This document shows, piece by piece, positions 13,519 to 25,853 of a stretch of DNA of 64,000 bases; within the stretch, counting starts at the first letter, position 1, and every line of letters starts with the position of its first letter. The notes under the pieces are model-generated. The model was not told where the DNA came from. It worked only from the letters and a program-made list of their open reading frames with translations, and searched no databases. A program made the position numbers and the translations under genes. Source of the DNA: Cryptosporangium aurantiacum (GTDB lineage Bacteria; Actinomycetota; Actinomycetes; Mycobacteriales; Cryptosporangiaceae); the NCBI RefSeq assembly GCF_900143005.1, contig NZ_FRCS01000013.1:124001-188000 (forward strand), read 5' to 3'.

Positions 13519-16368
13519 GTGACGATCTCTCCGGTCCCCGGTTCGTTGATCGGGCGTGACCTGGAGATCGCGAAGTTCGACCGGTGGATCACCGGCTGCC
13601 TTCAGGGCGACGGTCGCGCGGTCCTCATCGACGGCGAGCCCGGCATCGGCAAGTCCACATTGATGCGAACGGTGTCCCTTCAGGCCGCCGAGGCCGGCTT
13701 CACCGTCTACCGGGGCGCAGGCGATGAACTCGGCCAGGCGCTGCCCCTGTTGCCGTTCCTCGACGCGCTCGAGGTCCGCGAGTCCACGACCGATCAGCGC
13801 CGCCGTGCGGCGCTCCAGCTGTTGCGCGGCGAGTTCTCCACCGGCGCCGCGGTCGACGCGGTCACTGCGGCGTCCGAGCAGCTGTTCGCGCTCATCGAGC
13901 AGCTCTGCGAGCAGTCGCCCACATTGCTCGTGATCGACGATCTGCAATGGGCCGACCCGACCACGGTCGCGCTCTGGGGCCGGCTCGCCAAGGCCGCTCG
14001 GCAGCTCCCGCTCCCCCTGCCGCTGTTCCTGCTCGGTCTCGCCCGGCCGACACCGCAGGGCGACAGCCTCCGGGCCCTGCGGCGAGCGGTCGAACCGGGT
14101 GAGCTGGTCCGGCTGGGCCCGTTGGCCGACGACGACGTCACCGCGCTGCTGACCAGCCTGACCGGCGCCAGGCCCGGGGCAGAGCTGACCCGGCTCGCGG
14201 ACGGCGCGGCGGGTAACCCCCTCTACCTCACCGAGCTCATCGGCGCGCTGAGCCGTGGCTCCTATCTCACCGAGACCGAGCCGGGCACGGTGGACGTCGT
14301 CTCCGGTTCGGCTCCGCGAACGCTGACCGCTGCGATCGCCGACCGTCTCGGGTTCCTCTCCGAGAAGGTCCGCGGCGTACTTCGGGCCGCGGCGCTGCTC
14401 GGGGTCCGGTTCGCCGTCGACGATCTCGCGCTCGTGCTTAAGCAGAGCGTCACCGATCTGCTGCCCTCGCTGGAAGAGGCCATCGCCGCCGGTGTCCTCG
14501 CCGACACCCCCGAGGGCCTCGGCTTCCGGCACCCGCTGATCCGTACAGCGCTCTACGAGGAGCTACCGGCGTCGGTCCGCTCCGCATTGCACCGCGACGC
14601 CGGTCGCGCACTTGCCGCGGCGCACGCGCCGGTCGAGCGTGTCGCCCGGCAGTTGCTCTCGGCCGACGATCCGTCCGGCCCGCGCCTCGGTCCGCTCGAG
14701 CCGTGGGTGCAGGACTGGCTGGCCGAGGCCGGTCCGGCCCTGGTCGCGCAGGCGCCGCAGGCGGCGGCCGACCTGCTCCGCCGCGCCACCACGGGCTGGC
14801 CCGCCCGCGCCGCGGACGACGTGTTGTCCACCATGCTGGCCAACGCGTTGTTCCGCCTCGGCAACGCTCCCGAGGAGGCGGTGCAAGTAGCCGTCGCCGC
14901 ACTCGACCGCGTCACCGACCCGGACCTTCTCGTCGAACTGCACTGGATCCGCAGTCAGGCGCAGATGCAGGTCGGCGAAACTCCGGAGGCTGTCGAAGCG
15001 CTCCAGAAGGCGTTGGCCGACCCCTCGCTCAGCTCCCGGCACCGGGCACGGCTGCTGATCTCGGTCGGACGGGTCCACCGGATGGTCGGCCAGGTCCAGC
15101 TGGCGGAGAAGGCCGCTGAGCAGGCCCGGACGTTGGCGATCCAGTGCAACGACCGCTGGGCGCTGGCCTGGGCACTGCACCTTCTCTCCATCGCGAAAGT
15201 CACTCGCGGCGGCAGCGCGGAGAGTCTCTCGCTGTACGACGACGCCATCGCGGCGACCGCCGACGACCTCTCGTTGACCGATCTCCGCCTCCTCGTCCAG
15301 ATCAACCGGGCGATCTGGCTCGGCGACCTGGACCGGTACCCCGAAGCGCTGGAGGCACTCAGGGAAGTGCGCGACGAGGCTGCCCGGGTCGGCAGCGCGA
15401 TCCGGACGGCCCAGGCCTACACCGCGCTCTGCGAGCTGTACTTCGAGAACGGTCAGTGGGACGACGCGCTGGCCGACCTGAACGCGGTGCCCGACGAGGC
15501 GCGGGATCAAGCGTCCGCCTGCCAGCACCGCGGGATGGTGGCCGCCATCTACTTCCACCGCGGCGAGAGCGAGGCCGGCCTGCGCAACCTCGCGATCTCC
15601 GAGGCGCACGAGCAACTGCTCGGCCTGCGGGTCATCGCGGCGCCCGCGCTGGCGCGTTCCCTCCGCTCCGAGCAGGCCGGCCGGCCGGACGAGGCCCTTG
15701 CGAGTCTCCTCGACAGCCTCACCGGTGAGGTCGAAGAGCTCGACGAGATGGAAGGGCTTCTCCCGGACGCCATCCGTCTCGCGGTGGAGTGCAACAACCC
15801 GGACGGCGCGGCGCACGTTCTCCGCCTGGCCAATGAAGCAGCGGCTCGCTCCGCGAACCCGCACCGGGTCGGCACCGCGCTGTACTGCCGGGGCCTGCAC
15901 GACGGAGACGCGCAACTGCTGCTCCAGGCCGCCGAGCAGTACTTGGTCGCCGGGCGTCCGCTCTTTCGTGCCGCTGCTCTGGAAGCCGCTGCCGCGCGAT
16001 TCGCCGAGCTCGGGGAACGCGCAGAAGCCCGCGCCGCGTTCAGCCGCGCGCTCGACGGCTACCAGGCCCTGGATGCCAGATGGGACGCCGCTCGGCTGCA
16101 AAATCGGTTCCGGGAGTACGGGATCCGGCGGGCGCCGCGGGTCAAGCACCGCCAGGTCCGGTCCGGATGGGACAGCCTCACTCCCACCGAGGCGAAGATC
16201 GCCGAGCTGGTCACGCAGGGGATGTCGAACCCGCAGATCGCGGCCCAGCTGTTCCTGTCGCCGCGCACCGTGAGCACGCACGTCTCGCACATCCTGAGCA
16301 AGCTCGACCTACGCTCGCGGATCGACCTGGCTCGCGAAGCCGCACGTCGGGCCGAGTCTTCCTCATAG
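13519..16368 (+). CDS. LuxR-family ATP-binding regulator (LAL type, 949 aa)
   Basis: Large transcriptional regulator of the MalT/LAL class. The N-terminal AAA/STAND ATPase has Walker A GEPGIGKST at residues 39-47 and Walker B LLVIDDLQWAD at about 134-144. The long middle part (about 400-860) is helical and TPR-like, for ligand or partner binding. The C-terminal LuxR helix-turn-helix spans roughly 880-940 (LTPTEAKIAELVTQGMSN and SPRTVSTHVSHILSKL). The start is GTG. Such proteins often sit beside the genes they activate; here the nearest candidate is the divergent 36-aa peptide gene. The inducer is unknown. Confidence 0.93.
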   Translation: MTISPVPGSLIGRDLEIAKFDRWITGCLQGDGRAVLIDGEPGIGKSTLMRTVSLQAAEAGFTVYRGAGDELGQALPLLPFLDALEVRESTTDQRRRAALQLLRGEFSTGAAVDAVTAASEQLFALIEQLCEQSPTLLVIDDLQWADPTTVALWGRLAKAARQLPLPLPLFLLGLARPTPQGDSLRALRRAVEPGELVRLGPLADDDVTALLTSLTGARPGAELTRLADGAAGNPLYLTELIGALSRGSYLTETEPGTVDVVSGSAPRTLTAAIADRLGFLSEKVRGVLRAAALLGVRFAVDDLALVLKQSVTDLLPSLEEAIAAGVLADTPEGLGFRHPLIRTALYEELPASVRSALHRDAGRALAAAHAPVERVARQLLSADDPSGPRLGPLEPWVQDWLAEAGPALVAQAPQAAADLLRRATTGWPARAADDVLSTMLANALFRLGNAPEEAVQVAVAALDRVTDPDLLVELHWIRSQAQMQVGETPEAVEALQKALADPSLSSRHRARLLISVGRVHRMVGQVQLAEKAAEQARTLAIQCNDRWALAWALHLLSIAKVTRGGSAESLSLYDDAIAATADDLSLTDLRLLVQINRAIWLGDLDRYPEALEALREVRDEAARVGSAIRTAQAYTALCELYFENGQWDDALADLNAVPDEARDQASACQHRGMVAAIYFHRGESEAGLRNLAISEAHEQLLGLRVIAAPALARSLRSEQAGRPDEALASLLDSLTGEVEELDEMEGLLPDAIRLAVECNNPDGAAHVLRLANEAAARSANPHRVGTALYCRGLHDGDAQLLLQAAEQYLVAGRPLFRAAALEAAAARFAELGERAEARAAFSRALDGYQALDARWDAARLQNRFREYGIRRAPRVKHRQVRSGWDSLTPTEAKIAELVTQGMSNPQIAAQLFLSPRTVSTHVSHILSKLDLRSRIDLAREAARRAESSS

Positions 16369-16571: not shown

Positions 16572-18353
16572 CTATGTCCCCTCGGGGGTCGGGTAGCCGT
16601 GTCGCGGCGGCGACGCGTGCGGTGGGGTGACGCGCGCCCGCCCGATCACGCCGTCGCGGGCGGCGTCGGCTGCGGGATCGGACGGGCCCTCGGCGGTGAA
16701 GGGCCCGGCCGGCGCGGGGTCTGCCAGGGCGGGGCCGGCACTGGCAGGTCCGGCCGCGCCGGCCGGAGAGGGAGCGGGCTCCCCGCCGGCGGCGGGGAGC
16801 CCGGTGGGTGCGGGACCGAGAGGTAAAGCGAGGCCGAACTGCGTGACGCCGTCTTCGGCCCGGCCGTGCTGCATGCCGTCACCGGCTCGGCCGTTCTGCA
16901 TCCCGTCGTCCGCGCGGAGGCGGGGCACGTCACCGGTCGAGAACCGCGGCACGTCGCCGGTCGTGTAGCGAGGAATGTCGCCGGTCGAGTAGCGCGGGAT
17001 GTCACCGGTCGAGTAGACGGGCAGGTCGGCGCGGGAGATCCCGTGGTGGCGACCAGGCGCCGGGCCCTGCGGCCCGCGGGCGGCGGCGCCGTCGAACGGC
17101 GTCGCGTACGGGCCGGTCCGTCCGTGCGGCCCGGGGCCACCGAACTCTCCGGGGCCGCTGAGCGGAACGGGGCCGCCGAGCGCGCCGCCGAGCGGCGTCG
17201 AACCGTATGCCTCGGGACCACCGAGCGGGCCGGGACCGGAGACCGGGCCTAGGGCCAGCGGACCCAGCGGGTCCACCGCCGCGTACCCGCCGGTCGGCGA
17301 CCCGATGCCGGGCGGCAACTCGCTACCGTTGCGGCCGGCCGCGCCGGTGGGGACGCCGGTGCCGGAGCGGAGGCCGCCGACGGCGCCGACGGGGCCGCTG
17401 ACAGGGGCGGGGACGGCGGCCGGGGCCTGGCCGTTCCGGCCGTTCCGGGCGGTCCAGCCACTCCCGGGCGCACCGGCGGGGTCCGGCGGCACCGGGTACG
17501 AGCCGTTCGGGCCCGTCGCCGCACCGGGCTGCGGCGACGGGCGGTCGAAGCCGACCACCGGGAGCTGGCCACCCGGGTACCCGAGCTGGTCGGAGGTGGC
17601 CAGCGAAGGGTGCGGTGCCGGCATCATCGGCAGCCGGGGCGCGGGCCACGTCGGGCCGGGACGCAGCTGCGGAGGGTGGGGGCCAGGCAGCGACCGCTCG
17701 GCCTCGGCGACCGGTCGTGTTCCCAGCGCGGGGGACGCGCCGGCCGACGCCGAACCGTCCAGCCGCTCGCTGTGGAGCTTCTGGCTCGCGACCTCGAGCG
17801 CGGCGATCGTCGCCTCCTTGCGGCGCCGCCTCTGCCCCACGCGTGCCCAGCCCGGCGCGAGATACCACCAGGTGAGGAACCAGAGCAGCGTCCCGGCGGT
17901 AATCCAGAGCGCGTACGAGGTGCCCATCACGACGTCGAGAATGAAGAGCAGTACGCCGTTGAAGGCCAGCATCAGCAGCGTGACGCCCCAGAACGCGAAC
18001 TTGCTGGACGCCCGGACGAGCTGCGCCTCGAGCCGGCGGCGGAACACCAGCCGGTGGAACGGCGCGGGGGCGATCAACAGGCAGGTCGCACCGGCGACGA
18101 GAACCAGGCTCACCACGTAGACCGTGCGCTGGAAGCGCGTCGTCTCGTCGAAGCGGCTAGTGAACGCGAGCGTCAGCAGGAAAACGAGGAGCAGCTGCGT
18201 GCCGATCTGGGCGGCCCGGACCTCGTGCAGGATCTCGAGGTAGTTCCGGTTCCACCGCTGCGTCGGCGTCTCTCGCGTCCGCGGGTCGCGCGGCTCGGAC
18301 CGATCGCCGGACCGGCCGGAGACCGCGTTCCCGGCGGTCAGTTGCTTGGCCAT
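16572..18353 (-). CDS. DUF6328 membrane protein with long disordered tail
   Basis: About 593 aa from the ATG at 18353, which has a purine-rich upstream region; a GTG four codons earlier would overlap the RBS. Residues 28-42 (ETPTQRWNRNYLEIL) and four membrane segments (about 50-64, 76-95, 121-142, 147-165) fit the actinobacterial DUF6328 family, normally around 150-200 aa. The remaining 400 residues are Gly/Pro/Ala-rich and disordered, with repeats of the type RYSTGDIP near residue 480. The tail is probably cytoplasmic or surface-exposed. The gene is preceded by leader copy A, shared with the gene at 21255. Function unknown. Confidence 0.8.
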   Translation of the reverse strand: MAKQLTAGNAVSGRSGDRSEPRDPRTRETPTQRWNRNYLEILHEVRAAQIGTQLLLVFLLTLAFTSRFDETTRFQRTVYVVSLVLVAGATCLLIAPAPFHRLVFRRRLEAQLVRASSKFAFWGVTLLMLAFNGVLLFILDVVMGTSYALWITAGTLLWFLTWWYLAPGWARVGQRRRRKEATIAALEVASQKLHSERLDGSASAGASPALGTRPVAEAERSLPGPHPPQLRPGPTWPAPRLPMMPAPHPSLATSDQLGYPGGQLPVVGFDRPSPQPGAATGPNGSYPVPPDPAGAPGSGWTARNGRNGQAPAAVPAPVSGPVGAVGGLRSGTGVPTGAAGRNGSELPPGIGSPTGGYAAVDPLGPLALGPVSGPGPLGGPEAYGSTPLGGALGGPVPLSGPGEFGGPGPHGRTGPYATPFDGAAARGPQGPAPGRHHGISRADLPVYSTGDIPRYSTGDIPRYTTGDVPRFSTGDVPRLRADDGMQNGRAGDGMQHGRAEDGVTQFGLALPLGPAPTGLPAAGGEPAPSPAGAAGPASAGPALADPAPAGPFTAEGPSDPAADAARDGVIGRARVTPPHASPPRHGYPTPEGT

Positions 18354-18391
18354 CGTTAACCCCACCCTTCCGGCGTGACGGGCCCGGAGGC

Positions 18392-18659: not shown

Positions 18660-19649
18660 CTACACCGCTGCTTCGAGGCGGCGGCGCCCGTGGTACGCGG
18701 AGTCCGCGGTGACCGCGACCGCGCCGGCGGGCGGCGGGACGTCGATCGGGCGGTACACCGGCCGGGGGCCGGGTTTCCGCCGCGGGAGGTAGCGGTGGTA
18801 GATCTCCAGCCGGGCCGAGGCGGTCGGCGGCACCATGCCCGCGCGTCCGAACGAGTGCAGGATCGCCTGGTGCAGGACCCGCGCGGCCTCTTGGAGTCCG
18901 AAGCCTTCCGGCCTGCTGCCCTCCCGTCCCAGGCACCGCGCGATCATCGGCAGCGCGTTGTACCGGTTCTGGTCGGCCAGCTCACGGCAGGCCATCTCGA
19001 ACGCGACGTAGAAGCCGGAGAACGCCACCGGGTACGCGAGCGTGTCGGTGAAGTGCAGCCGGTGGCGCGACAGCGCGGGCACCGCGTACCACCGCAGGCC
19101 CAGCTCGGCGAACCAGGCGTACCCGGGGTGCTCGAGGTTCACCTCCAGCACCCGCTCGGGTGAGAGCTCGTATGCGATGACCGGTCCCTCGTGCACGCGC
19201 AGCAGCAGCGGCAGGACGTCGAACGGCCCGGGGAGCAGCCGTCCGCCGTCGACCGGACGGCCGCCCGGCCATCCGGCCCGCAGCGCGAGCGTCGTGAGTT
19301 CGATGTGCCGGGGGTCGCCGAGGATCGTGCCGTCGGCCTGCCGGTAACCGGCGTAGCCGACCAACTGGTCGTTGAGGATCTCGACGCCGGGGTCCAGCAC
19401 GGTGGCGACCGACCGGATCCGTCCGTCCCTGGTGGCGACCCGGAGGTGTTCGGCCAGCCCGGAGGCGACTGCGTCCGGGTCGGTCACCCCCCGCAGGTCC
19501 CGCACGTGCAGGCCGCGCCAGCGCAGCCGGCCGATGCCTCGGTCGGCGTTCGCCCAGGCGACCCGCGCCGCCCAAGCCAGTTGCTCGGTGGTGGGAACGG
19601 TCGGACCGGCAACATTTCTCCGGTCCGCCGCGACGACCTCGATCCTCAC
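18660..19649 (-). CDS. Nitric oxide synthase oxygenase homologue lacking the heme cysteine
   Basis: A 329-aa protein collinear with bacterial NOS oxygenase domains. Matching segments are AWANADRGIGRLRW (31-44; NOS W-x-N-x-x-RCIGR), LNDQLVGYAGY (92-102), GPFDVLPLLL (141-150), LEVNLEHPGYAWFAELGLRW (168-187), FSGFYVAFEMA (210-220; NOS FNGWYMxTE) and LADQNRYNALP (224-234). The cysteine that ligates heme iron in NOS is Gly38 here, although the flanking Trp32, Asn34 and Arg37 are kept. The substrate-binding Glu is retained (Glu218) and so is Gln95. Arg98 is Gly and the active-site Trp is Phe213. The enzyme probably does not make NO in the usual way. It lies in one run with a PLP decarboxylase. Confidence 0.88.
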   Translation of the reverse strand: MRIEVVAADRRNVAGPTVPTTEQLAWAARVAWANADRGIGRLRWRGLHVRDLRGVTDPDAVASGLAEHLRVATRDGRIRSVATVLDPGVEILNDQLVGYAGYRQADGTILGDPRHIELTTLALRAGWPGGRPVDGGRLLPGPFDVLPLLLRVHEGPVIAYELSPERVLEVNLEHPGYAWFAELGLRWYAVPALSRHRLHFTDTLAYPVAFSGFYVAFEMACRELADQNRYNALPMIARCLGREGSRPEGFGLQEAARVLHQAILHSFGRAGMVPPTASARLEIYHRYLPRRKPGPRPVYRPIDVPPPAGAVAVTADSAYHGRRRLEAAV

Positions 19650-19710
19650 TTCGGCACCTCCGTAGGGGTCGGGCTCAAGAGCGCCGTCCGCAGGGGTCGG
19701 TCGAAAGAAC

Positions 19711-21258
19711 TCAGTCGCGCAGCACGCTGACCGTGGCGAGCGTCGGATCGGCGGCGCCGTGGATGTGCATGCCGGTGGAGACCGCGCGCTCGAGGGCGGC
19801 GACCGCGTCGCGGTCGAGCCGCTCTCCGGGCATGACCGCCGGGACTCCGGGCGGATAGGGGGTGATCGGCTCGGCGCTGGTGCGTCCGACGGCCCGCTCG
19901 AGCGGGATGTTCTCGGTCGCCGCGAAGTGCGCCTCGCGCGGTGTGCAGACCTGCTCGCGCGGGGCGAGCAGCGCCGCCACCAGCTGACCGTCCCAGGCCG
20001 GGCGCAGCCGCCGACGGGGACGGCAGGAGAGCGTCCGCAGGGCCGTGACCAGCGCGTCCACCACGTCCGGGGAGGTACACGTGGTGATCGCGACGAACAG
20101 GTTGCTCTCGTCCGAGCCCTCGACGGCCACTGCGGGGTGGAGTAGCCCGCTGGTACCGAGCCCGGGGCCCGGCGTCCGCAGCAGTTTTTCGAGAGCGAGG
20201 CCGGTCAGGCCGAGCCCGCGGACGCTGACGACCAGCCGCAGCGGGTCGAACCGCTCCCGGGGGACACCGAGGTCTTCGGCCTCGGCGACCCGGACGCCGG
20301 GGATCGCGGCGAGCCGTCGCCGCGCGTCGGCCACCAGGTCCAGCGTCCGGTCGAGCAGGATCCGGCCGCGGCTGACCATCGTGCGCCGGGCCTCGTCGAT
20401 GCTGGCCAGGACCGGCAGCAGCGGACTGGTCGTCTGCGTCATCTGGACCGTGCGGCCGATCCGGCCGGCGTCGATCCGCTCGCCACGGACCAGGATGAGC
20501 GCCGCACCGGACGGTGCGGCCAGCATCTTGTGGGCCGAGGTCACTGCGACGTCGGCCCCGGCGGAGATCGCGTTCTCCGGCAGGTCGGGGTGGAACGGCA
20601 GGTGCGCACCCCAGGCCTCGTCGACGAAGAGCGGCGCGTCGTGGCGGTGCGCGACCGCGGCGAGCGCCCGGACGTCCGAGCAGGCACCGGCGTACCCGGG
20701 GCTGACCATGCTCACCAGGCTCGCGCGGTGTCCCGTCGCGGCCAGGTCGGTGAGCGCGCGGTCCAGCGAGATCGGGTCGATGCCGAGGCTGATGCCGAAG
20801 CCGCCCTGGTCCAGCCGCGGCGTCACCCAGTGCGGCGTCGCGCCGGACAGCACCAGTCCGGCCAGCGTGGAGGTGTGGCTGTCGCGGGCGACGACGACGT
20901 GGTCGGCACCCGGGTTCTGCTGCTGTGCCAGGTGCACGGCGCGGTTGCCGCCGGACGAGCCGTCCAGCAGGAACAACGCCTCGTCGGACCCCCAGGCCTT
21001 GGCGGCGAGCGCCTCGGCCTCGCGGCGGGCCGTGGTCGCGTCGGCCGGGGTCAGCCAGACGTCGGACGCCAGAAACGTGCTGCCGAGGAGGTTGCGCAGG
21101 CCGGGTCCGACCGTACGGCCGCCGGCGTGACCGGGGACGTGCAGCGCCCCGGTCTCACACCCGCGGTACCGGATGATCGCGTCGACCAGCGGGGCGGAGC
21201 CGTGAGCGGCGTCGTACAGGACGGGCCGGTCACCGGACGGGAGGGCAACGGCGGTCAT
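19711..21258 (-). CDS. PLP-dependent Orn/Lys/Arg decarboxylase-family enzyme
   Basis: A 515-aa fold-type I PLP enzyme similar to Bacillus SpeA (arginine decarboxylase). The N-terminal HVPGHAGG (40-47), the PLP-phosphate loop LLDGSSGGN (97-105), Asp213 (FVDEAWGAH) and the Schiff-base Lys244 (TSAHK) are all present. The C-terminal domain REAHFAATENIPLERAVGRT, which completes the family architecture, is intact. The product is expected to be an amine such as agmatine or cadaverine, but the specificity is not readable. Its start overlaps the membrane-protein gene by 4 bp, and the NOS-like gene follows 61 bp downstream. Confidence 0.92.
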   Translation of the reverse strand: MTAVALPSGDRPVLYDAAHGSAPLVDAIIRYRGCETGALHVPGHAGGRTVGPGLRNLLGSTFLASDVWLTPADATTARREAEALAAKAWGSDEALFLLDGSSGGNRAVHLAQQQNPGADHVVVARDSHTSTLAGLVLSGATPHWVTPRLDQGGFGISLGIDPISLDRALTDLAATGHRASLVSMVSPGYAGACSDVRALAAVAHRHDAPLFVDEAWGAHLPFHPDLPENAISAGADVAVTSAHKMLAAPSGAALILVRGERIDAGRIGRTVQMTQTTSPLLPVLASIDEARRTMVSRGRILLDRTLDLVADARRRLAAIPGVRVAEAEDLGVPRERFDPLRLVVSVRGLGLTGLALEKLLRTPGPGLGTSGLLHPAVAVEGSDESNLFVAITTCTSPDVVDALVTALRTLSCRPRRRLRPAWDGQLVAALLAPREQVCTPREAHFAATENIPLERAVGRTSAEPITPYPPGVPAVMPGERLDRDAVAALERAVSTGMHIHGAADPTLATVSVLRD

Positions 21259-21815
21259 CGGTTCGCCGTCCTTTCACCGATGACCGCCGTGCCGCCGACG
21301 GCGCCGGACGGGCCGGCGCTCGGGGAGGGGGCGATCGATGCGGACTTGGTGGACTTACCGTTGGGCGCCAGGATCATGTAGGTCATCAGCGCGAAGATCG
21401 CGGCCATCGCCGCCCACTTCCCCGCCGGCACCACGACGCCGTTGGCCATCTTGTCCATGATCAGGACGCCGACCTGGAGGAAGACGATCCAGCCGAGGGT
21501 CACCGTGCCCAGCTCGGCCCACTGCAGGCTCGCCGCGTAGACGGCGAACAGTCCGAGGAACGCGATCGCGCCGGCCGACCACCAGAGTTGGTGACCGTTG
21601 TCCATGTAGCGCATCGCGCAGTAGCTGCCGACCAGGTCGAGGCCGGCGAGCGCGATGATCGCGCCGACAGCCATCGGGGAGAACTCGAGACTCTTGCTGG
21701 CGACGATCGGTTCGGCCAGTGCCGACGCGACGGTCGGTTCGGACAGGGCCGCGGGGAGACGGAACACGTCGGCAACGGGTGCCGGCGTCGCGTCCAAGGT
21801 CGTGTAAATGGCCAT
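21255..21815 (-). CDS. Four-helix membrane protein, SMR-like architecture
   Basis: A 186-aa protein with an N-terminal cytoplasmic-type segment of about 45 residues, then four hydrophobic helices (roughly 47-66, 77-97, 103-121, 130-148) and a short polar tail. The size and helix layout recall small multidrug-resistance-type transporters, but I see no diagnostic residue match and do not assign the family. The RBS GGTGGAG precedes ATG by about 6 nt. It is the first gene of the minus-strand run with the decarboxylase (4-bp overlap) and NOS-like gene, and carries conserved leader copy B. Export or uptake of the pathway's amine or guanidine compound is a plausible but untested role. Confidence 0.75.
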   Translation of the reverse strand: MAIYTTLDATPAPVADVFRLPAALSEPTVASALAEPIVASKSLEFSPMAVGAIIALAGLDLVGSYCAMRYMDNGHQLWWSAGAIAFLGLFAVYAASLQWAELGTVTLGWIVFLQVGVLIMDKMANGVVVPAGKWAAMAAIFALMTYMILAPNGKSTKSASIAPSPSAGPSGAVGGTAVIGERTANR

Positions 21816-24395: not shown

Positions 24396-25853
24396 GTGCC
24401 GACTAAGGAAATCGTCATCGCACCCAGGCCGGTGCCGTACGGATCCGCGACCAACGACCTGAGTGACGAGTCGTTCGCGATCCGGATGGCCGCCCGGCTC
24501 GGCGACGCGAAGCGCTCGGTCGACCGGTTCGTCCACGAGGTGCGCTACCGCCCGCCGCGCAGCCGTACCGCCCGGATGCTGGTGCTGATCCCGGCGCACA
24601 ACGAGGAAGCGACGATCGCGAAGACGCTCGACGCGCTGCTCACCCAGTCCCGGGTGCCCGACCGGATCGTCGTCATCGCCGACAACTGCACCGACGACAC
24701 CGAGAAGATCGCCCGCCGCTACCGTGGGGTGACGGTCATGCGGACCGTCGACAACCACGACCGCAAGGTCGGCGCGCTGAACCAGGCCTGGCGCCGCTGG
24801 CAGGCCGGCTACGACTTCATCGCCGGCATCGACGCCGACACCCAGCTCGCGCCGGACTGCCTCCAGCAGCTCGAGGAAGAGCTCGCCAACACCCCGCGGG
24901 CCGGGGGCGTGATGGCCCGGTACACGTTCGATCAGCGCCTGGGATCGACCCCGATGGCCCGTCTGCTGATCCGCCTGCAGCGGCTCGAGTTCGCCAGCTG
25001 GACGATGGACGCGCTGCAGAAGAACCGGACGACGTACGTCCTCGGCGGCCAGGCGTCGCTCTTCAACGCCGACGCGTTACGCCGGGTCACCGAGCGCAAC
25101 AACACCCCGGGGCCCTGGGACGCGTCCGCGCAGGTCGAGGACATGCAGCTCACCGGCGACCTGCGGGCGATGCGCTACGAGACGCTGGTCTCCCCCACCG
25201 CGCGGGCACACGCGGGGGCGATGCTCACGGTCCGCTCGCTCTGGGCGCAGCGCCGCAAGTGGGACGAGGGGATGGCGCGGCTGCTCGCCAAGCCGGCGCT
25301 CTCCAAGTGGACCGCCACGCTGTGGCGTCAGCAGCTCTCGCTGCTCTCGAACGGCGTCACCCGGCTGATGTTCCTCTTCCTGCTGACGTTCTCGCTGATG
25401 GTGCACCAGTTCGTCTGGTCCTGGTGGTGGCTCACGCCGACGGTGGTCGCGTCGCTGCTCAACGCGCGGGTCGCGTGGCGGGTGCCGAACCGCACGATGG
25501 GTGACGTCTTGACCGCGGCGCTCCTCGTCCCGGTCGAGTTCTACCTCTGGTTCCGCCTGGCCTGCACCACCGCGTCCTGGTCGAACGTGCTGGCCGGCAT
25601 CAAGCGGGACGGCTGGGAGGACCAGGCTCGCGCCGAGCGCGGCGCGTCGAACGGCCCCGGCCGGATCATCACCGCCGTCGCGATCATCGCGGTGCTCGCC
25701 GGTCTGACCGTGTTCGGCTGGCTGAACGCCCCGCTGTGGCTCCAGGAGCGGGTGCTGACCGTCGGCTGGTCGCTCCTCGCGGTGGTCACCGTCCTGCAGA
25801 CCCTGCTGATGCTCATCCGCCTGGTCCGCCCGAGCCGCGGTTACCGCCCCTGA
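24396..25853 (+). CDS. Family 2 glycosyltransferase, membrane-bound
   Basis: A 485-aa glycosyltransferase of the cellulose-synthase/chitin-synthase-like GT2 type, transferring sugars from a nucleotide donor at the membrane. The GT-A domain contains LVLIPAHNEEATIAKTLDAL (about 63-82), the DAD metal motif in GIDADTQL (about 148-155), the acceptor-site EDMQLTGDL (about 247-255) and a QxxRW-like QRRKW (about 287-291). Four C-terminal membrane helices follow, including LMFLFLLTFSLMVHQF. The start is GTG with GGAGAGG upstream. It ends in a strong terminator. The polymer it makes is unknown. Confidence 0.9.
   Translation: MPTKEIVIAPRPVPYGSATNDLSDESFAIRMAARLGDAKRSVDRFVHEVRYRPPRSRTARMLVLIPAHNEEATIAKTLDALLTQSRVPDRIVVIADNCTDDTEKIARRYRGVTVMRTVDNHDRKVGALNQAWRRWQAGYDFIAGIDADTQLAPDCLQQLEEELANTPRAGGVMARYTFDQRLGSTPMARLLIRLQRLEFASWTMDALQKNRTTYVLGGQASLFNADALRRVTERNNTPGPWDASAQVEDMQLTGDLRAMRYETLVSPTARAHAGAMLTVRSLWAQRRKWDEGMARLLAKPALSKWTATLWRQQLSLLSNGVTRLMFLFLLTFSLMVHQFVWSWWWLTPTVVASLLNARVAWRVPNRTMGDVLTAALLVPVEFYLWFRLACTTASWSNVLAGIKRDGWEDQARAERGASNGPGRIITAVAIIAVLAGLTVFGWLNAPLWLQERVLTVGWSLLAVVTVLQTLLMLIRLVRPSRGYRP

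Follow-up and report, generated by a model that had tools for sequence, protein, structure and literature searches.

Nitric oxide synthases (NOS) act on arginine. In these proteins the iron is held by a proximal Cys that bonds to a Trp, and in the bacterial enzymes arginine is held by Tyr, Trp and Glu while the pterin is stacked on a Trp, as described in a review (PMC9500659). In a docking and simulation study, the iNOS pocket includes Gln257, Pro344, Val346, Met349, Trp366, Tyr367 and Glu371 (PMC3472740). Another study gives Trp455, Trp457, Phe470, Arg375 and Arg193 as iNOS pterin contacts and reports uncoupling and weaker dimers in eNOS mutants of Trp447 (PMC3795282). NOS genes have also been mined for nitration clusters (PMC10831120).

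Here, we analyzed a 64,000-nucleotide stretch of DNA from Cryptosporangium aurantiacum (hereafter, the window), which encodes a NOS-like protein that lacks the heme Cys (Table 1). The protein matches the Pfam profile NO_synthase (PF02898, E = 1e-68) over residues 19–271, corresponding to profile positions 46–295 of 362, and its closest match by sequence in the PDB is endothelial NOS (eNOS; 1.6e-51, residues 21–310), while a search of NCBIfam, run up to E = 1, gave no match. The proteins of all four genomes sampled from the genus match NO_synthase, and the source genome (98% complete) contains no other NOS match. The first-pass annotation, made from the sequence alone, had described an alignment with NOS oxygenases over the whole length; the homology stands, and the best profile match is indeed NOS and not another family, but the claim was slightly too strong, as profile positions 1–45 and everything beyond position 295 are unmatched. 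The structure prediction that this annotation had called for also returned a NOS fold. A moderate AF2 model built from five sequences (pLDDT 68.1, pTM 0.68) has 3nos as its first Foldseek match (1.2e-21, TM 0.65 by query length), and all 50 PDB matches listed are NOS by description, a result that is partly circular and not independent of the sequence match because the other four sequences in the AF2 input were themselves NOS proteins; with only one relative (two sequences), pLDDT was 36. Since residues 37–42 have a pLDDT under 50, the model is silent on Gly38 and on the geometry of the heme site. Profile and fold together place the protein in the NOS oxygenase homologous family. With the bacterial members of PF02898 it shares the fold, the core sequence (mostly 39–49% identity in the order sample), the heme-stacking Trp and the Gln, Tyr and Glu of the arginine site, whereas it differs from them by a Gly at the heme Cys, by changes of the distal Arg, Met and Trp, by the lack of the pterin-stacking Trp and by a shorter N terminus.

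Table 1. Features of the NOS-like locus, in window coordinates
Feature	Coordinates	Strand	Basis
NOS-oxygenase-like protein without heme Cys, 329 aa, GTG start	18660..19649	minus	ORF, Pfam, PDB, Foldseek
GGAGGT, Shine-Dalgarno-like, 7 nt upstream of the GTG	19657..19662	minus	sequence read directly
Codon 38, GGC (Gly), position of the heme-ligating Cys	19536..19538	minus	sequence and alignments
Codon 98, Gly (one congener has Ser), replacing Arg of QLIRYAGY	19356..19358	minus	alignment
Codon 196, His in 4/4 congeners, assigned to the distal pocket through iNOS Met349	19062..19064	minus	alignment; PMC3472740
Codon 218, Glu, substrate-binding Glu kept	18996..18998	minus	alignment
Orn/Lys/Arg decarboxylase, 515 aa; separated from the NOS-like start by 61 bp	19711..21258	minus	Pfam, PDB
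Hydrophobic, probably membrane protein, 186 aa; 4-bp overlap with decarboxylase start	21255..21815	minus	ORF; no family match
DUF6328 protein, downstream of NOS-like gene, syntenic in genus; operon membership uncertain (294 bp gap)	16572..18365	minus	Pfam, synteny
Large neighbour in convergent orientation, LuxR-type regulator by look alone, syntenic in genus	13519..16368	plus	ORF, synteny

The central observation of the first-pass annotation, that the RCIGR motif reads RGIGR, is confirmed, as codon 38 aligns with the heme Cys and encodes Gly. All four congeners carry Gly at this position, with the codons GGC, GGC, GGG and GGC, a synonymous difference, and a local mutation or a local error can therefore be rejected. 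The three other congener proteins are 87–93% identical to the query, and none of these three homologues, found in the same gene context, carries the Cys, so that the refutation which the first-pass annotation had named did not materialise. In the family sample a homologue is present in five of five genomes, the four of the genus and one from another genus, whose protein is 40% identical to the query and has the heme Cys. We then extended the comparison to wider samples, in which NOS matches were present, own genome included, in 59 of 298 order genomes (E up to 0.001, with the query protein itself used), 55 of 394 class genomes and 8 of 396 phylum genomes; two of the 59 order genomes (G400 and G420; loci L134 and L135) gave weak matches that are no NOS by profile. 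The heme column was read in all genes of the class, order and phylum lists, in 6 of 14 plasmid matches and in four genes of viral contigs (L094, L109, L110 and L112). The resulting 135 alignment rows, window included, show 128 Cys, 4 Gly and 1 Ala, two pieces being short of the column. They represent 131 distinct genes: two genes are doubled, a single split gene gave rise to the Ala row and, through its other frame, to one of the Cys rows, the two short pieces are parts of split genes with the Cys in the other piece, and one gene was added (L090 of G095; Cys). In total, 127 of these genes have Cys and 4 have Gly, such that the Cys is present in all 127 genes read outside the genus. The Ala belongs to L074, which appeared in both the 79-row and the 135-row alignments as a second Cys-less NOS, a candidate that we rejected, the gene being split between frames with the Cys in the other frame. 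Three NOS genes in relatives (L074, L078 and L155) are split between reading frames in this way, by decay or sequencing error. Two short-pattern scans of genome contigs, with few patterns and possibly without records near the source genome, found no relatives and therefore carry little weight. Our literature search, in a library that lacks most subscription papers, found no report of a Cys-less NOS among the matches listed, so that an earlier report may exist.

We next compared the rest of the active site with 114 canonical rows, which were selected by the presence of the Cys and of the loop's GR (their Cys count is thus by construction) and include two doubled genes. Trp32, Asn34, Arg41, Gln95, Pro191, Tyr214, Glu218 and Arg222 are kept, among them the four residues (Trp32, Asn34, Gln95 and Glu218) that the first-pass annotation had listed as retained. 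Trp32, which corresponds to the proximal Trp that is hydrogen-bonded to the Cys in NOS, is invariant across the four congeners, as are Arg222 and the substrate-binding Glu218 with the neighbouring Tyr214 and Gln95. Through the eNOS alignment, Gln95, Tyr214 and Glu218 are eNOS Q247, Y357 and E361, in a numbering that we take to be the chain index plus 40. The same comparison bears out the replacements reported earlier, Gly98 for Arg and Phe213 for Trp: position 98 is Arg in 107 of 114 canonical rows and Gly or Ser in the genus, and position 213, Phe in the genus, is Trp in 101 rows, His in 6 and Phe in 3, so that Phe213 is not unique. Moreover, position 196 is Met in 108 of 114 rows and His in the genus, and the genus differs further by Leu for Ile193, Glu for Asn223 and Ala for Arg33. 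The position of Tyr188 faces the substrate in animal NOS; this residue, Tyr throughout the genus, is not counted as a kept bacterial residue because it is His in 94 of 114 canonical rows. At the pterin site, Arg222 and Arg/Lys37 correspond to iNOS Arg375 and Arg193, and both Trp (iNOS Trp455 and Trp457) are absent under either C-terminal alignment, including the stacking Trp (iNOS W457, eNOS W447). A 33-residue C-terminal deletion was rejected as alignment-dependent, since solely the absence of the two Trp holds under both alignments.

With both the thiolate and the pterin Trp gone, NOS chemistry is very unlikely. Without a thiolate ligand the NOS reaction would be impossible, and the loss of this chemistry, as predicted from the residues, is well supported; the protein probably no longer produces NO. 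An annotation based on the profile only would label the gene as a nitric oxide synthase and so credit the bacteria with NO production. The remaining protein could act as a purely structural or dimer-forming scaffold without ligand, given that its cofactor sites have changed while, of the 48 columns with at least 95% conservation across the 114 canonical rows, 39 have stayed the same in every one of the four congeners, but the arginine-site Gln, Tyr and Glu, needless for a scaffold, are among the kept residues, and we regard this role as distinctly improbable.

NOS proteins mutated at the heme Cys are not known to hold heme; our literature search for heme loss in such mutants found no paper on NOS. 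The NOS-like protein could nevertheless still bind heme via a different axial ligand, such as the distal His196 or Cys239, and serve as a sensor, a heme carrier, or another oxygenase or peroxidase. Consistent with this view, the genus retains Trp32 at the heme-stacking position, Arg/Lys37 and the IGR loop, and His196 and Cys239 are each found in all four congeners and in none of the 114 canonical rows, whereas the proximal loop (residues 32–44) is without Cys, His, Met or Tyr. The replacement ligands that had been proposed from the sequence of the window were Cys221, Cys239 or a His; Cys221 can be no shared ligand because it is Ala in one congener, while Cys239 and His196 stay as candidates. 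Overall, we consider heme binding through another residue unlikely.

To assess how the gene evolves, we compared dN/dS across the genus. The NOS-like gene has values of 0.13–0.22 (six congener pairs), near those of the decarboxylase gene (0.12–0.19, six pairs); the gene at 24396 has 0.11–0.19 (three pairs), and the genes for the 186-aa protein and the DUF6328 protein have 0.20–0.43 and 0.24–0.46, respectively. In a tree of 79 rows, the stem of the genus measures 1.26 changes per column and the end branches within the genus at most 0.12, a pattern that would correspond to change first and constancy afterwards; this is a quick tree in which the genus joined with L078 where long branches meet, and we make no claim on clade placement. 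A pseudogene is rejected by the dN/dS of 0.13–0.22 and the intact frames. That the gene is decaying on its way out might be read from the several lost active-site residues and the long stem, but frames are intact in all four species, the end branches are short and the Shine-Dalgarno sequence is good, making decay highly improbable. The earlier suggestion of a repurposed rather than decaying enzyme is accordingly supported, by Gly38 in all four congeners, by the dN/dS and by the conserved gene order. As far as codon substitutions tell, this selection shows that the gene product is used. Purifying selection, together with polar residues that are new and invariant (His196 and Glu223, for instance), would also suit a non-heme enzyme that works in the former substrate pocket, either cofactor-free or with a different cofactor, and acts perhaps on a guanidine or amine that the decarboxylase produces; however, no new catalytic motif was recognised, and the open-access literature gave no report of such a NOS-fold enzyme among the matches listed, so that we find this proposal quite improbable.

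The gene order provides a further indication of function. The LuxR-like, DUF6328, NOS-like, decarboxylase and 186-aa protein genes are conserved in order and orientation in all four congeners, the decarboxylase gene preceding the NOS-like gene in each. The decarboxylase belongs to the Orn/Lys/Arg (OKR) family by both its major domain (PF01276, 1.7e-43) and its C-terminal domain (PF03711, 6.3e-11), and its closest solved relative is biodegradative arginine decarboxylase (5.4e-29). The stretch Ser241-Ala-His-Lys244 is invariant across the genus, Lys244 presumably holding PLP. For the 186-aa protein, profile searches including Pfam found no family, and an SMR transporter was rejected, with no PF00893 match and an hhalign probability of 0.2%, obtained with two profiles low in diversity. 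Outside the genus, decarboxylase matches in the 298 order genomes are 33–47% identical, and among the 16 order genomes with both matches no pairing of NOS and OKR genes was seen: in eight, a single contig carries the two genes with at least 136 kb between them, and in the other eight the genes are on separate contigs, so that adjacency interrupted by a contig break is still conceivable (in G521 the NOS gene is 1.6 kb from the contig end). Another genome of the same family (G397) has NOS and no OKR match, and a scan of viral contigs with the decarboxylase as query found no relative. A loose parallel, by annotation, is found on a Deinococcus taeanensis plasmid (L102, 2818–5721), in which a canonical NOS gene is followed by an annotated pyridoxal-dependent decarboxylase gene.

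Based on the retention of an arginine-type site beside a decarboxylase of the basic amino acid family, we propose that a NOS-fold protein has lost its heme-thiolate chemistry and become an arginine-type-ligand-binding partner of the neighbouring decarboxylase, a tentative reading to which we give a probability of about 0.4. In this model, the retained Gln95/Tyr214/Glu218 site would still bind arginine or a similar compound, either a basic amino acid or an amine, and the protein, no longer an oxygenase, would serve the decarboxylase by binding substrate, by regulation or by delivery. The partner role, which we infer from position and residues, has two points of caution: the linkage to the decarboxylase may be accidental because the pairing is confined to a single genus in our samples, and arginine need not be the ligand because the distal Arg and Trp are changed. 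A bolder version, in which a heme-free NOS fold acts as a subunit that senses or delivers arginine or a polyamine precursor and controls a PLP-dependent basic amino acid decarboxylase, is unlikely. If the protein is a NOS-fold pseudoenzyme turned metabolite-binding regulator, it would be, as far as our searches reach, the first of its kind in the literature searched. A lineage without the Cys, in which selection maintains the remainder of the protein, suggests that the NOS fold is usable without NOS chemistry, and what this fold can do besides NO formation becomes directly testable. A similar situation exists in an unrelated family, the type 1 opsins without a retinal site, in which the cofactor-holding residue is gone and the fold is kept (PMC4915679).

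Our survey also revealed other divergent NOS genes and contexts. In the same order, 14 NOS paralogues (family f4; L063–L075 and L077) carry the motif SGWC or SGHC with the heme Cys kept, have Leu or Val for the heme-stacking Trp and lack the IGR loop and the WSW pterin segment; the substrate Glu is absent in 7 of 14. Eight of the 14 genomes have a second NOS match, the f4 paralogue being the only one in the other six, and seven f4 loci have a common neighbour, with a PF02390 methyltransferase in both loci tested. These paralogues resemble the NOS-like protein in their altered heme loop and missing C-terminal pterin segment, but they keep the Cys and have lost the Trp and IGR, the reverse of the NOS-like protein, and they form a separate tree group, so that they appear to represent an opposite route of NOS change. 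NOS genes are also found on contigs catalogued as viral in IMG/VR (L094, 2788–3978; L109, 2501–3547; L110, 2501–3571; L112, 2501–3547), which may be viral or host DNA. Finally, on a plasmid of Nostoc sp. C052 typed as conjugative (L103), a NOS gene (1276–2445) lies between two annotated SDR oxidoreductase genes, followed by a fatty acid desaturase gene, in a region that looks like a biosynthetic cluster.
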